Below, in pieces: positions 6,026-53,735 of a stretch of 64,000 nt of DNA; within the stretch, counting starts at the first letter, position 1; each line of letters starts with the position of its first letter. The position numbers were made by a program, and so were the translations under genes. The notes beneath the pieces were generated by a model, which searched no databases, had not been told where the DNA came from, and saw nothing but the letters and a program-made list of their open reading frames with translations. The DNA is from Candidatus Colivivens caballi (GTDB lineage: Bacteria; Bacteroidota; Bacteroidia; Bacteroidales; Bacteroidaceae). The stretch spans positions 1 to 64,000 of the forward strand of contig JAGHSZ010000007.1 in assembly GCA_018065565.1 (NCBI GenBank), written 5' to 3'.

Positions 6026-6260
6026 TTGGCAATGATGCAGCACTAACCACTTCTTTAAAGGCTTTATTGTGTTCCATTTTAACCGAGGGAAACAAGATGC
6101 GGATGATAAATAAGTAGTAGGCTAATTAGTATGTTATAGTCTAATGGCCTATTGTGGTTGAATACATGCTTAACAGCATTTTTATGATACTTGGACTTGG
6201 TCTCTGAGCTGTTTGTGCGTGTATTTCATGTAAAAATATGGTAGTTCTGTTTTTTTTTCG

Positions 6261-6268
6261 TAATTTTG
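6261..6268 (+). promoter_or_regulatory. -7 element of the lepA promoter
   Basis: TAATTTTG fits TAnnTTTG, 38 bases before the lepA start. The -33 position is obscured by a T tract. The rest of the 281-base gap from 6026 shows no gene. Confidence 0.4.
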
Positions 6269-6306
6269 TGCCGAATTATAAACATATAACAACAGACACG
6301 AACTAA

Positions 6307-8091
6307 ATGAAGAATATTCGCAACTTTTGTATTATTGCACATATTGATCATGGTAAGTCAACTCTGGCTGACCGATTGCTTGAATATACTAACACCATTA
6401 AGGTTACTGAAGGGCAGATGCTTGACGACATGGATCTTGAAAAGGAACGAGGCATCACCATCAAAAGTCATGCCATTCAGATGGAGTACAAACTTGATGG
6501 TGAAACTTATATACTGAACTTGATTGATACTCCGGGGCATGTTGACTTTTCTTACGAAGTGAGCCGAAGCATTGCTGCTTGTGAGGGAGCTTTGCTGGTT
6601 GTTGATGCCACTCAGGGCGTTCAGGCACAGACAATATCAAACTTATATATGGCTATCGACAACGACTTGGAAATAATTCCTGTCATCAATAAGTGCGATA
6701 TGCCAAATGCTATGCCAGATGAGGTGGCAGACGAGATAATTGACCTTCTTGGCTGCAAGCGCGAAGAGATTATTTTGGCGTCAGGCAAGACTGGTATGGG
6801 AGTCGAGGAAATTCTGCGTGCTGTGGTGGAACGCATACCTCATCCAGAAGGTGACGAATCTGCTCCACTTCAGGCTCTTATCTTTGATTCTGTCTTTAAT
6901 TCGTTCCGCGGCATCATTGCATACTTCAAAGTTGTGAACGGTGTGATGCGTCCTGGTCAAAAGGTGCGTTTCATTAATACAAAGAAAGAATATCAGGCAG
7001 AAGAAATCGGTGTGCTAAAAATGGACATGGTACCTCGAAAGGAACTGCGGACAGGTGATGTTGGTTACATAGTCTCTGGTATTAAGAATGCTGTTGAAGT
7101 AAAAGTGGGTGATACCATTACCACGGTTGCTGATGGCAGTATGGAGGCGATTGAAGGCTTCCAGGAGGTTAAGCCAATGGTCTTCGCCGGTGTGTATCCA
7201 ATCGAGACTGAAGATTATGAGAACCTTCGCACATCACTTGAAAAACTTCAACTTAACGACGCTTCACTTTCTTTCCAACATGAGAGTTCTGCTGCACTGG
7301 GATTTGGTTTCCGCTGTGGTTTCCTCGGACTTTTGCACATGGAAATTGTTCAGGAGCGACTTGACCGTGAGTTCAACATGGATGTGATCACTACTGTGCC
7401 AAATGTGTCTTATATGATATATGACAAGCATGGTGTGGCAACCGAAGTTCACAACCCTTCCTCTATGCCCGACCCAACACTGATTGAGCATGTCGAAGAA
7501 CCTTATATTCATGCAACGATTATTACCACATCCACATATATAGGTCCTATTATGACCTTGTGCCTCAGCAAGCGTGGTGAACTTTTGAAGCAGGAGTTTA
7601 TTGCTGGTAATCGTGTGGAGATACATTTCTTGATGCCACTTGGCGAAATTGTCATTGACTTCTATGACAAGTTGAAGAGTATAAGCCGTGGCTATGCCTC
7701 TTTTGATTACAGCAGTGCTGGCTTCCGCCCATCTAAACTGGTTAAACTCGACATTCTGCTCAATGGCGAAAGTGTCGATGCACTGAGCACACTTACACAT
7801 GTTGACAATGCAGTGACGCTTGGTCGCCGTATGTGTGAACGCTTGAAAGATTTGTTGCCACGCCAACAGTTCGATATTGCAATTCAGGCGGCTATCGGTG
7901 GCAAGATCATTGCTCGTGAAACTGTCAAGCAAGTTCGAAAGGATGTACTTGCAAAGTGTTATGGTGGTGATGTTAGCCGTAAACGCAAACTGTTGGAAAA
8001 GCAGAAGGCTGGTAAAAAGCGAATGAAGCAGATTGGAAATGTGTCGGTTCCTCAGAAAGCTTTCCTTGCAGTGCTGAAACTTGATGATTAG
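6307..8091 (+). CDS. lepA: elongation factor 4 (LepA)
   Basis: A ribosome-associated translational GTPase that acts on stalled or mistranslocated ribosomes. The 594-residue length matches the family. G motifs are intact: AHIDHGKST (11-19), the switch I segment RGITIKS, DTPGH near 77, NKCD near 130. They are followed by EF-G-like domains and the LepA-specific C-terminal domain rich in Lys/Arg ([19 protein letters not shown]), which reaches the peptidyl-transferase region. Flanking genes are unrelated and it appears to be transcribed alone. Confidence 0.98.
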
Positions 8092-8103
8092 TGACATAAG
8101 CTG

Positions 8104-8137
8104 CATTGATTAATGGTAAAAGTTACATTGATTAATG
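8104..8137 (+). repeat. two direct copies of a 12-bp repeat, 22 bp apart
   Basis: CATTGATTAATG occurs at 8104-8115 and 8126-8137, just after the lepA stop. The rest of the 200-base gap to the protease gene shows nothing further and no clear promoter. Confidence 0.55.
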
Positions 8138-8291
8138 ATATAAACTGCTTTAACTACATAAACGGTGTAAACCTTAATAGCAGAGTTTGCTTCTTACAAT
8201 GGTTTGGATGAGCAATTCCGTTTGATACATTCACCATGGAGCTGACTTTACTTGTTTCAGACAACCAACAGACTAATACCCCAATTGTCCT

Positions 8292-23984: not shown

Positions 23985-24103
23985 ACAATGTCGTTTAGAG
24001 ATCGTAGATACAAAAACCTCAAATCCTCCCGATTGTGGGGACTGGCTATTCAGCTCTTTTGGACTTGACGCGAACTTGCTTGCCATTAAGCTTTATTATG
24101 CAT

Positions 24104-24145
24104 ATCTTTAAGCTTAAACATGCGCATCTTTAAGCTTAAACATGC
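24104..24145 (+). repeat. two perfect 20-bp palindrome-containing repeats, 22-bp period
   Basis: ATCTTTAAGCTTAAACATGC is repeated exactly at 24104-24123 and 24126-24145. Each copy contains the palindrome TTTAAGCTTAAA. Degenerate flanking units (AAGCTTTATTATGCAT before, ATGTTAAAGCATTAATTTGCAT after) extend the pattern over most of the gap between glnS and the TPR gene. A regulatory or repeat-expansion role is possible. Confidence 0.8.
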
Positions 24146-24205
24146 ATATGTTAAAGCATTAATTTGCATACAAGTGGTCTTCGTCTTGCTTATCGTTGTA
24201 CTTCT

Positions 24206-50911: not shown

Positions 50912-51892
50912 CTACTGTTGAAGGAGGGCAGCCACACGGAGTTTTGCACTTCGTGACCTTGGGTTGGTCTGCTGCTCCTCGGCTGACGGCAGAATCGGCT
51001 TGCGTGTCACGATGGTGAACGGCGACGATGTGCGTCCGTAGAAGTCTTTCTCTTCGCGCCCTTCGGTGTTGCCGGTCTTCATCAGGTTCTTGACGAGCCT
51101 GTCTTCGAGCGAGTGATAGGTGATGACCACCAGTCGTCCGCCAGGTTTGAGTATCTGGGTGGTTGACTGCAACATTTCGGTCAGTGCCTCCATCTCGTGA
51201 TTGACTTCGATGCGTAGTGCCTGAAATGCTTTTGCCATCTCTTTCTTCTCGCGGTCGCGTGGGAAGAAGGGCTGTAACAGGTTGAGCAGTTCGCCAATCG
51301 TCGCGATTGGGTGTTGCTCACGATTTTTAAGTATTGAGGATGCTATCTGGCGACTTTGGCGCAGTTCTCCGTAGAGGTAGAAAATGTCGGCAAGCCGCTC
51401 TTGTGAATAAGTATTGAGGATGTCTGCCGCCGTAAGGCGTGCCTGACGATTCATTCGCATGTCGAGAGGTGCATCGGGATAGCGGAATGAGAATCCGCGT
51501 GACTCGTCGTCGAAGTGGTGCGACGACACCCCGAGGTCAGCAAGCACTGCATCGACTCCCTCGGTCTCTCCATGATACTGCATGAAGTTCTTGATGAAGC
51601 GGAAGTTGCTTCGCACGAAGGTGAACGGCTTGTTGCTGCCGTTGTTGTATTCGGCTTCGATGGCTTCTGCGTTGGCGATGGCATCAGCGTCCTGGTCGAA
51701 ACTGTACAGGCGTGCCTTGCTGCCGTTGCCAGTTGCATCCGCTGAATCTTCGCACTGGCGTATGCGGCGCAGGATTTCGCGGCTGTGGCCGCCTCCTCCG
51801 AAGGTGACATCCACATAAACGCCGCCTGCGTGGATTTCCATCGCGTCGATACTCTCGTTCAGCAGGACGGGTATGTGGTACTGTGTCTCCAT
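50912..51892 (-). CDS. rsmH: 16S rRNA (cytosine-1402-N4)-methyltransferase
   Basis: Methylates C1402 in the ribosomal P site. The 326-residue protein has HIPVLLNESIDAM at the start, the SAM loop YVDVTFGGGGHSREIL near 26-41, ADLGVSSHHFDDESRGFSFR near 118 and the C-terminal VITYHSLEDRLVK near 256. Its start shares one base with the mraZ stop, the typical mraZ-rsmH pairing that opens dcw clusters. Confidence 0.97.
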   Translation of the reverse strand: METQYHIPVLLNESIDAMEIHAGGVYVDVTFGGGGHSREILRRIRQCEDSADATGNGSKARLYSFDQDADAIANAEAIEAEYNNGSNKPFTFVRSNFRFIKNFMQYHGETEGVDAVLADLGVSSHHFDDESRGFSFRYPDAPLDMRMNRQARLTAADILNTYSQERLADIFYLYGELRQSRQIASSILKNREQHPIATIGELLNLLQPFFPRDREKKEMAKAFQALRIEVNHEMEALTEMLQSTTQILKPGGRLVVITYHSLEDRLVKNLMKTGNTEGREEKDFYGRTSSPFTIVTRKPILPSAEEQQTNPRSRSAKLRVAALLQQ

Positions 51893-52344
51893 CAGATTGT
51901 TCCTCCCATCAGTTGCTGAATGTCACTTCCAAGTGACGGTTCCGATTGTTGCAGGTGCTGTTCCAGAGTCTGTCGGTCCCACAGCTCGATGTGGTCATCG
52001 ACGGCAAGAAACCGTACATCAGTGGTGATGCGTGCAAATTCCATCTTGCGCTTGTTTATCAAGATGCGCCCGTTGCTGTCGGTCTCGACCATTTCGGCGT
52101 CTGCCACAAACTGTCGTTTCACCTGCTGGTGCTGACTGTTCCATCGGTTGAGCCTCGTGTCGAGTTCGTCGAGCATCTCGTGCCACAGACTTGATGGGTA
52201 GAGTACAAGGCATGGCTGAAACAGGTCCTGACGCATCACGAGTGTGGTACACTCTTCTGCTTCGAGCACCTTTCTCAACGGTGCGGGAAGGAACACTCTA
52301 CCCTTCGCATCCGTCTTTGCCGTGTAGTCTCCAATGAAACGCAT
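51892..52344 (-). CDS. mraZ: transcriptional regulator MraZ
   Basis: A ring-forming DNA-binding protein with two AbrB-like (SpoVT-AbrB) domains that represses dcw operons in other bacteria. The 150-residue protein starts MRFIGDYTAKTDAKGRVFLPAPLRK; the second domain contains VETDSNGRILINKRKMEFARI. It is first in the cluster, so autoregulation at the promoter just upstream is likely by analogy. MraZ usually binds direct repeats such as TGGGN; I do not see an obvious array of these here. Confidence 0.95.
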   Translation of the reverse strand: MRFIGDYTAKTDAKGRVFLPAPLRKVLEAEECTTLVMRQDLFQPCLVLYPSSLWHEMLDELDTRLNRWNSQHQQVKRQFVADAEMVETDSNGRILINKRKMEFARITTDVRFLAVDDHIELWDRQTLEQHLQQSEPSLGSDIQQLMGGTI

Positions 52345-52400
52345 CTGCCTTGATTCTTTTACTTAATACCCTGTCTAACTCTGGTTTTCGTTTTCGAGTG

Positions 52401-52408
52401 CAAATTTA
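52401..52408 (-). promoter_or_regulatory. -7 element of the dcw promoter (mraZ)
   Basis: On the minus strand TAAATTTG fits TAnnTTTG, giving a leader of about 50 bases before mraZ. The -33 element is poor. Confidence 0.5.
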
Positions 52409-52616
52409 CTAAAACTTTTTCATACTTTCCCCACATTTCCCCACATTTTTTCAAACTTTTTTTAAGTTTATTTATTGGTGTATATAAACTGCTGATAATC
52501 AAATGGTGCATTGGTGGGGCGAGAAGCGGGTGCAAACTCCGTTTTTACAGTGAAGTCTGTTGGCTGAAACTGTTTTGAAAATGGATTGTCAATCGTCCAT
52601 AGGAAAATGCCTGAAC

Positions 52617-52810
52617 GAGCGCTCGTGTTTTCCTTATCGAGCGCTCATGTTTATGAAAAGGTGTACACCAAAATTCAGAAAGGTGTACACCTTTTCGGAA
52701 TAACCTGTACACCTTTTTTCAGGAAGGTGTACACCTTTTTCAATTATCCACCGCACGATTGACCATTTATGAGCGCTCGCGAGGCAATTTCCGTGCGCTC
52801 GCGAGGCAAT
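52617..52810 (+). repeat. cluster of two palindrome families upstream of the dcw operon
   Basis: The octamer palindrome GAGCGCTC occurs at 52617, 52639 and 52771, and a 16-bp unit GCGCTCGCGAGGCAAT occurs at 52773 and 52795. Between them the decamer palindrome GGTGTACACC occurs at 52660, 52682 and 52726, with a degenerate copy at 52704; these are spaced 22 bases apart throughout. This lies in the 767-base gene-free gap (52345-53111) between divergent mraZ and the beta-barrel gene. The rest of the gap holds only promoters. Confidence 0.8.
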
Positions 52811-52899
52811 CCTTGTCGTGACCTCAATGCAGCGGATACCGATGCGGCGGCGTTTCTACTTGATTTTTCGTTGCAAAATACAAATTTTCCATTCGCTTT

Positions 52900-52930
52900 T
52901 TTGCTGTTTACAAAAAAATGACTACCTTTG
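52900..52930 (+). promoter_or_regulatory. promoter of the outer-membrane beta-barrel gene
   Basis: TTTG (52900-52903), 19 bases, TACCTTTG (52923-52930). The leader to the start codon is about 175 bases. Confidence 0.75.
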
Positions 52931-53111
52931 CCACGGAGTATGTTTCCGCATTGCAGGTCGATGCGGCAGAGTCAATACATATTTTTTCGTCTCCGGTGGC
53001 TCGGAGGCTCTTTACCATCTGACGATGCGTTTCTAACCCGATAGATTGCAATCTCATTTCTTAACAACTGTAATATCATTTTTAACAATAGAATTCTAAC
53101 ACTTGATAATT

Positions 53112-53735
53112 ATGAACAGAAAACATCTATTTATTGTGGCGCTTTTCGCTGCAATGTTCACCGCTCTGCCAATGGGAGCGCAGACAAGTTTTGGTCTGAT
53201 GGCTGGTGTCAACCAGACCAAGGTGTCGCTTGACAACCTTAGTCGCGACTTGCAGGACAAGAACAAACGCGCGGGTTTCTTCGTTGGTCCTACTGTGACA
53301 TTCACCCTGCCAATTGTTGGGCTGGGCATGGATGCATCGGTGCTCTACGACCATAAATCCATTCAGATTGGTGATGAAAATGAGAATGTTGACTATGTGG
53401 ATGTTCCTGTGAATGTGCGTTATACAGTGGGACTCGGCAGTCTGGCGTCGGTGTTCATTAATGCCGGTCCGCAGATTTCGTTTAATGTCACTGGCAAGGA
53501 CGACTTGTTCAAGGACTTCGATATGGCAAGGTCGGAGTTTGAACTCAGCAAGTCGGAGTTCAGTATCAATGTCGGTGGCGGTGTCAAGGTGTGCCGTCAT
53601 ATCCAGGTTTCTTACAACTACAACATGGTTGTTGGCAAGACTGCTGAGTTGACTTTCCGTGACGGTGCCAACAAGGTGATCAACGGCGAAATCAAGAACA
53701 ATACTCACAGGGTAGCAGTTGCCTATCTGTTCTGA
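53112..53735 (+). CDS. outer-membrane beta-barrel protein (porin/PorT-like family)
   Basis: A 207-residue protein with signal peptide MNRKHLFIVALFAAMFTALPMGA, then alternating strands typical of an eight-stranded barrel (SFGLMAGVNQTKVSL; GFFVGPTVTFTLP; VDVPVNVRYTVGLG; FINAGPQISFNVTG; SYNYNMVVGKTAELTF) and a terminal aromatic (VAVAYLF), as needed for BAM insertion. This matches the Bacteroidetes 'porin family/outer membrane beta-barrel' group; cargo and function are unknown. A terminator follows 18 bases later. Confidence 0.85.
   Translation: MNRKHLFIVALFAAMFTALPMGAQTSFGLMAGVNQTKVSLDNLSRDLQDKNKRAGFFVGPTVTFTLPIVGLGMDASVLYDHKSIQIGDENENVDYVDVPVNVRYTVGLGSLASVFINAGPQISFNVTGKDDLFKDFDMARSEFELSKSEFSINVGGGVKVCRHIQVSYNYNMVVGKTAELTFRDGANKVINGEIKNNTHRVAVAYLF

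Follow-up and report, generated by a model that had tools for sequence, protein, structure and literature searches.

The gap between mraZ and its right-hand neighbour in the 64,000-nucleotide stretch of Candidatus Colivivens caballi DNA analysed here (the window) contains a phased array of about ten palindromic boxes, one of some 80 such arrays in the genome. The arrays share one geometry, combine conserved boxes with diverged spacers, lie between genes at regular distances, and recur with other letters in other genomes. We give about even credence to the reading that each cluster is a docking array for a putative dimeric, sequence-specific DNA-binding protein, and that the arrays most likely serve chromosome organisation. 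Protein binding, its dimeric and cooperative nature and the chromosome-level role are what we infer from these features.

Layout of the window array and its surroundings

The whole array spans positions 52585-52811 and consists of four central boxes with lower-specificity boxes on both flanks. Within the core, TGTACACC recurs at 52662, 52684, 52706 and 52728, in steps of exactly 22 bp. The original prediction had described four GGTGTACACC-type palindromes 22 bases apart, and these were located at 52660, 52682, 52704 and 52726. Three of them are perfect GGTGTACACC (box 1, 52660-52669; box 2, 52682-52691; box 4, 52726-52735), but box 3 (52704-52713) is the variant CCTGTACACC, an imperfect palindrome whose place is taken by GCTGTACACC in most copies.

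Around the core, the three outer palindromes of the original prediction were also found, as GAGCGCTC at 52617-52624, at 52639-52646 (adjoining the core) and at 52771-52778. Their description as nested clusters did not hold, however. With box centres at 52620.5, 52642.5, 52664.5, 52686.5, 52708.5, 52730.5 and then 52774.5, the GAGCGCTC and GTGTACAC boxes share one 22-bp register and therefore form a single array rather than two nested clusters. Two degenerate units complete the layout: the outermost left unit CGTCCATAGG (52594-52603), recognised by eye from aligned copies and similar to units in copies L010 and L013, and the right outer box ACCGCACG (52750-52757), which adjoins the core in register according to the column profile of the copies. 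The predicted 16-bp duplication is present as two GCGCTCGCGAGGCAAT units starting at 52773 and 52795, 22 bp apart, which together (52773-52810) span both right-hand outer boxes. The array as a whole displays inverted symmetry, its arms at 52616-52648 and 52769-52801 being 73% complementary.

The left neighbour is mraZ (51892-52344, minus strand; PF02381, 1.6e-20), which is no special target. The right neighbour (53103-53735, plus strand) was labelled beta-barrel type in the original prediction and is kept here under that label only; the OMP_b-brl Pfam family matches two unspecified members of the set of 69 array-flanking proteins.

Further 22-bp segments occur in the window. An unrelated array of TTTAAGCTTAAA with ATGCAT 11 bp on occupies 24067-24181, in a gap between two minus-strand genes that read, from their translations alone, like glnS and a TPR gene; a third periodic segment (TTGATTAATG...) lies at 8071-8165. 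These are two of five unrelated 22-bp arrays in a 462-kb sample of the genome, all at least 9.9 kb from main-family copies (P 0.046), the five excluding a weak sixth segment (C17:21791, score 0.61) that adjoins a main array.

Copy number, conservation and chromosomal spacing

The genome is available as a 2.55-Mb draft of 168 contigs (G000), 85% complete. A genome-wide word count, the check proposed with the original prediction, returned 172 forward and 160 reverse matches to TGTACACC-N14-TGTACACC, or 332 with palindromic pairs counted on both strands, against 0 and 0 for the reversed control pattern. Identical 6-bp palindromes in 398 kb of the genome occurred 78 times at spacing 22 and 0 to 4 times at each of 26 other spacings (14 to 40). 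Both results place the array far beyond chance. The pattern for boxes 3 and 4 identified at least 82 loci, the window array among them (75 exact and seven with one or two mismatches), of which a few at contig ends are possibly single loci counted twice. A DNA search yielded 91 matches, and 40 of 95 first-look candidates were scored.

Four exact TGTACACC words at steps of 22, 22 and 22 were present in 39 of the 40 compared copies, window included, the fortieth being cut by a contig end. These 40 (39 plus the window) are best matches and hence biased, so the count was repeated on 462 kb chosen regardless of match quality and made up of the window and 20 stretches from long contigs. There, a profile search returned 21 places, two of which (5 and 3 bits) were discarded as noise; the remaining 19 were array copies, and no decayed copies appeared in this sample. 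Box letters fitted the consensus at 605 of 608 positions in the 19 copies, with three differing as scored; reading the L131 copy on the plus strand leaves one. The 14-nt spacers between boxes are variable within the 22-bp period, and their middle eight letters are only about 51% identical pairwise, an average over all 21 places, including the two noise places. Among the copies compared, no indels were seen in the 22-bp core register. The number of outer boxes differs from copy to copy and conservation fades outward, with no sharp ends seen where boundaries were read from the copies. Box 1 is preceded by an A-run and box 4 followed by a T-run, both near-invariant. We read the combination of near-invariant palindromes, an exact, indel-free spacing of two helical turns, a core of four boxes and spacers that have diverged as the probable mark of selection for a cooperative dimeric binder.

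The original prediction would have been refuted by palindromes occurring frequently in other gaps without the spacing. They are indeed frequent elsewhere, but nearly always with it: only two isolated GTGTACACC were found among loci L009-L047. Periodic segments in the own-genome sample numbered 25 at 22 bp and 15 at 21 bp; those at other spacings are probably mainly coding or simple repeats. In the left flank of the family, periodic power is highest at 22-24 and is also present to some extent at 10.5. Other repeats adjoin certain arrays: the left flanks of L016, L021, L026, L044 and L046 border a G-rich, CCTGAAAGGGAGGGATGGGGAGGG-like repeat, perhaps a REP-type element, with a looser likeness in L037 and L047, and a repeat of the TTAGCCATTTGCCATTAGCCATT kind adjoins the array in the right flanks of L010, L041 and L043.

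Gene calls from a codon-usage model placed none of 51 elements inside a predicted gene; 16 lay near contig ends and had one neighbour only. The 35 with both neighbours comprised 14 in co-directional, 13 in convergent and 8 in divergent gaps, compared with 47, 15 and 18 among 80 gene gaps of at least 200 bp without an element. Four of the 14 co-directional elements were oriented with their genes and ten against. The 69 flanking proteins matched 108 Pfam families, with no family represented by more than two proteins, and thus gave no sign of a regulon. Control of the dcw operon, one of the functions originally proposed, is not borne out: some 80 other loci together with the missing regulon speak against an operator specific to mraZ or dcw, and in the nearest congener by MraZ (G102) no array was seen by eye upstream of mraZ.

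Along the chromosome, the arrays are regularly spaced, with one array for roughly every 24 kb of the sequence sampled. Measured inside contigs whose length is known, the distances from one copy to the next (20 intervals) had a mean of 19.3 kb, a minimum of 7.5 kb and a CV of 0.37, against 0.885 for random placing, an evenness matched by none of 20,000 simulations. With elements less than 400 bp from contig ends (assembly breaks) removed, 15 intervals remained, with a minimum of 12.9 kb and a CV P of 5e-5. When random places were drawn only from gene gaps of at least 150 bp, in fetched stretches of five contigs, 11 intervals gave P values of 0.0026 (minimum) and 0.0004 (CV). The spacing tests rest on this fragmented draft and on one listed part of a second genome (G135, below), and close pairs would likewise be depleted if recombination between neighbouring repeats were selected against. 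Even dispersal throughout the genome, next to unrelated genes, points to a role at the level of the chromosome, and a chromosome-organisation site, another of the functions first proposed, is favoured by the dispersal, the regular spacing, the intergenic position, the lack of a fixed link to gene direction and the near-invariant boxes.

In the mechanism that we propose, the four high-specificity central boxes would nucleate binding, and about three lower-specificity boxes per side would extend it outward. Because box centres stand 22 bp (two helical turns) apart, all bound units would sit on one face of the DNA, in a complex covering about 220 bp. Some 80 arrays of this design would mark the chromosome for domain boundaries, tethering or condensation, rather than control single genes.

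The 22-bp geometry in other genomes

Among the species searched, the exact array seems to occur in this one only. The pair pattern occurred in six of 201 family genomes, own genome included, the other five having one or two matches each, and none of the remaining 16 genomes in the genus, which are 51-94% complete, yielded the exact array. Short matches in G145 and G047 (L069 and L070) look like coding sequence and were rejected as array copies. In 1.34 Mb from four congeners, the best profile match reached 15.6 bits (E 0.0028), compared with at least 117 bits for own copies.

The mraZ gaps of 13 congeners were compared by eye only. In G102, the nearest congener by MraZ (80%), no array was seen upstream of mraZ by eye, the gap being too diverged for a junction to show; G047, which with G102 makes up the two nearest congeners, carries upstream of mraZ three GTACA boxes spaced 22 bp apart. 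Neither G102 (3 pairs) nor G047 (1 pair) has an excess of palindrome pairs at 22 bp, so these two seem to do without the system, which is therefore no requirement across the genus. Absence from all close relatives would have refuted the original prediction; the exact array did not turn up in the 16 congener genomes, but 22-bp arrays written in different letters are present in some congeners and not in others.

In 365 kb of the congener G117, 24 periodic segments were found at spacing 22, one of them inside a predicted gene; a joint scan of its two contigs gave 25 at 22, 8 at 21 and no more than 4 at each remaining spacing. These arrays comprise several box families, and across 365 kb their distances show only partial regularity (minimum 2.6 kb, P 0.013; CV 0.82, P 0.22). 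In 351 kb of the congener G021, between 6 and 8 segments at spacing 22 were counted under different filters, and the looser scan also gave 8 at 14 bp; periodic segments at spacings of 14, 15 and 16 likewise appeared in the looser congener scan. This genome also contains, within about 600 bp (L124:13640-14300), three 22-bp arrays that are each built on a different palindrome (AACATATGTT, GAGTTAACTC and GAATCGATTC).

Three genomes of another genus in the same family, G121, G135 and G163, contain 131, 129 and 124 three-box TGTACA matches per strand with one mismatch, against 11 each for the control. Exact four-box TGTACA matches in G135 number 57 per strand versus 1 in the control. The large contig of this genome, at 4,166,832 bases, is nearly the whole genome, and 49 listed loci (up to 3.64 Mb) have a minimum spacing of 12.75 kb (P 8e-5) and a CV of 0.78 (P 0.04). 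Of 15 arrays read, one has boxes of the ATGTACAT type and 14 have boxes of the TTGTACAA type, which in most cases are followed 11 bp later by a second palindrome; the flanks of these 15 alternate between GC-rich and AT-rich with a period of 22 and hardly any power at 11. A further array, with two boxes intact and two altered by eye, is shared in position by G121, G135 and G163, whose loci are 95.5-95.7% identical there, so that not every array is kept intact.

Other genomes carry the design as well. At up to two mismatches per three boxes, and with controls at 0, Parabacteroides gordonii DSM 23371 has eight four-box loci of CCTGTACAGG/GGTGTACACC type and the Bacteroidales MAG S28M (G207) twelve three-box loci. 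In S28M contigs C5, C120, C170 and C278, the middle box is AGTCTAGACT instead of AGTGTACACT, with the same half-site pattern GTNTANAC; the boxes may resemble GntR/HutC-family operators of the GTNTANAC kind. Within the order, only four of 295 genomes, own genome included, contain the exact TGTACA pattern in its three-box form, the other three as single tandem runs, and this letter set is therefore rare. Longer near-perfect 22-bp tandem runs exist in some other genomes, and a Saprospiraceae MAG (L090:2649-2768) contains GTGTACACC-type units at an 11-bp period.

The same design with different letters in some relatives may represent an undescribed way of organising chromosomes; arrays of this kind were not found described in the open-licence literature searched. 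More tentatively, some Bacteroidales could possess a new organising system in which ten-dimer complexes of about 220 bp form on four-box arrays 8-30 kb or more apart throughout the chromosome, with recognition letters swapped by lineage (GGTGTACACC, TTGTACAA, CCTGTACAGG, AGTGTACACT or AGTCTAGACT, and non-TGTACA elsewhere) on a constant 22-bp geometry. To our knowledge, little has been established about chromosome organisation in Bacteroidota, and we know of no Noc- or SlmA-like site system described for this phylum. Some 80 even, strictly phased arrays offer a direct handle: if a protein binds, the DNA itself can fish it out. Changed box letters on a constant geometry provide a test case for a protein co-evolving with dozens of genomic sites at once, and the eight arrays in the cultured type strain P. 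gordonii DSM 23371 open the question to bench work.

Alternative explanations and known systems

The alternative that survives best, though we consider it unlikely, is a non-autonomous, MITE-like mobile element, in which transposases would bind the boxes and target immunity would account for the even spacing. Transposases of the Tn7/Mu type, the model for this explanation, bind end sites of about 22 bp. Dozens of copies of species-specific sequence, a minimum distance between copies, the mraZ locus of the nearest congener without an array and the inverted symmetry of the whole array are all compatible with such an element. The copies, however, show no sharp ends and vary in outer-box number, and mobility alone does not maintain nearly fixed boxes amid spacers about 51% identical with no decayed copies. 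The array shared in place by G121, G135 and G163 also speaks against mobility, as do the six Pfam families with two flanking proteins each, which are not transposases (among 25 of the 108 families listed). A blastn search of plasmids and phages with one array copy as query gave no match, which further weakens a mobile element and sets back a plasmid or phage origin.

An element acting as RNA, either a bidirectional terminator or REP/BIME-like hairpins at 3′ ends, appears less probable still. The near-invariant A-run and T-run flanking the core would suit it, and so would the strong RNA fold of the window copy (z -9.5), but DNA built of palindromes folds well as RNA anyway. The excess in convergent gaps is mild and borderline (13 of 35 versus 15 of 80, P 0.057; 7 of 16 in the unbiased sample, P 0.047), and 8 of the 35 elements lie between divergent genes, where a terminator or REP element would be expected not at all; the G135 arrays are co-directional in ten of 14 cases, divergent in three and convergent in one. 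Hairpin loops should moreover tolerate indels, of which the core 22-bp register has none in the copies compared. Rfam returned no family at the gathering threshold for 52400-53000 (601 bases), with two weak microRNA-family matches far below it, so no known RNA family is recognised in that interval.

We regard as quite improbable a third explanation, that the arrays are chromosomal, iteron-like sites which bind or titrate plasmid Rep_3 initiators (plasmid immunity) or which derive from plasmid origins. A Ruminococcus MAG and a viral contig do carry tandem TGTACACC repeats about 22 bp apart next to Rep_3 genes, at L091:5166-5395 (Rep_3 gene 6203-7270) and L093:2360-2455 (Rep_3 gene 957-2222), both likely iteron origins. 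Yet these contigs were picked by the very pattern, which tandem 22-bp TGTACACC repeats may match by chance, and titration would not need even spacing. No Rep_3 gene (PF01051) was found in the 85%-complete draft, and a Rep_3 iteron origin in the own genome was rejected on this ground. A neutral minisatellite, the repeat expansion that the original prediction also allowed, is the least credible explanation: variable outer-unit number and the longer tandem runs in other genomes would fit it, but it fails to explain an indel-free four-box core with fixed boxes and diverged spacers, or the same period across unrelated box sequences.

Against this background, docking arrays that organise the chromosome remain our favoured reading, and they resemble several known systems in part. 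Rep_3 iterons are likewise direct repeats about two turns apart, and TGTACACC is shared with the two arrays adjoining Rep_3 genes; they differ in forming one array beside a rep gene, against some 80 chromosomal arrays in a genome where no Rep_3 was found. The end sites of TnsB and MuA are arrayed, about 22 bp long and subject to target immunity, by which nearby copies are avoided, and the arrays here are alike in unit length, arrangement and avoidance of nearby copies. TnsB/MuA sites are not palindromic, however, and bound an element with defined ends, whereas the present boxes are palindromic and no defined ends were seen. REP/BIME elements of enterobacteria are short, palindromic and intergenic, with tens to hundreds of copies, as are the many-copy arrays here; REP elements are stem-loops mainly at 3′ ends, in contrast to arrays that also lie between divergent genes and keep strict helical phase.

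Within the Bacteroidales, the BrickBuilt MITE of Porphyromonas gingivalis is similarly dispersed, intergenic and made of tandem units of comparable length. It comprises 23-nt units without spacers, in 1 to 22.8 repeats with at most 6% indels, and a leader and tail with inverted-repeat ends, in 19 copies (PMC4596501). By comparison, the arrays described here have a 22-bp period in place of the 23-nt spacer-free unit, variable 14-nt spacers, a core of four and palindromic boxes, and no leader or tail was noticed.

A parallel in chromosomal distribution lies with the nucleoid-occlusion systems Noc and SlmA. According to PMC4726725, about 70 palindromic NBS and 24-52 SBS sites are dispersed on the chromosome, several protein molecules per site have been proposed or seen, and the sites are depleted near the terminus. 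Dispersed palindromic chromosomal sites are likewise found in the own genome and in G135. The G135 list shows no evident terminus depletion, with arrays dense at 1.07-1.41 Mb, roughly opposite a parS-like site at 3.23 Mb; the origin is not securely placed, since the parS pattern gave only two one-mismatch sites against one in the control. The boxes are distinct from parS itself, whose TGTTNCACGTGNAACA-type site has other letters and yielded two one-mismatch matches in the own genome versus one in the control. A difference concerns architecture: in PMC4726725, NBS and SBS are described as single palindromes, whereas the sites reported here are four-box arrays built on a 22-bp ruler.
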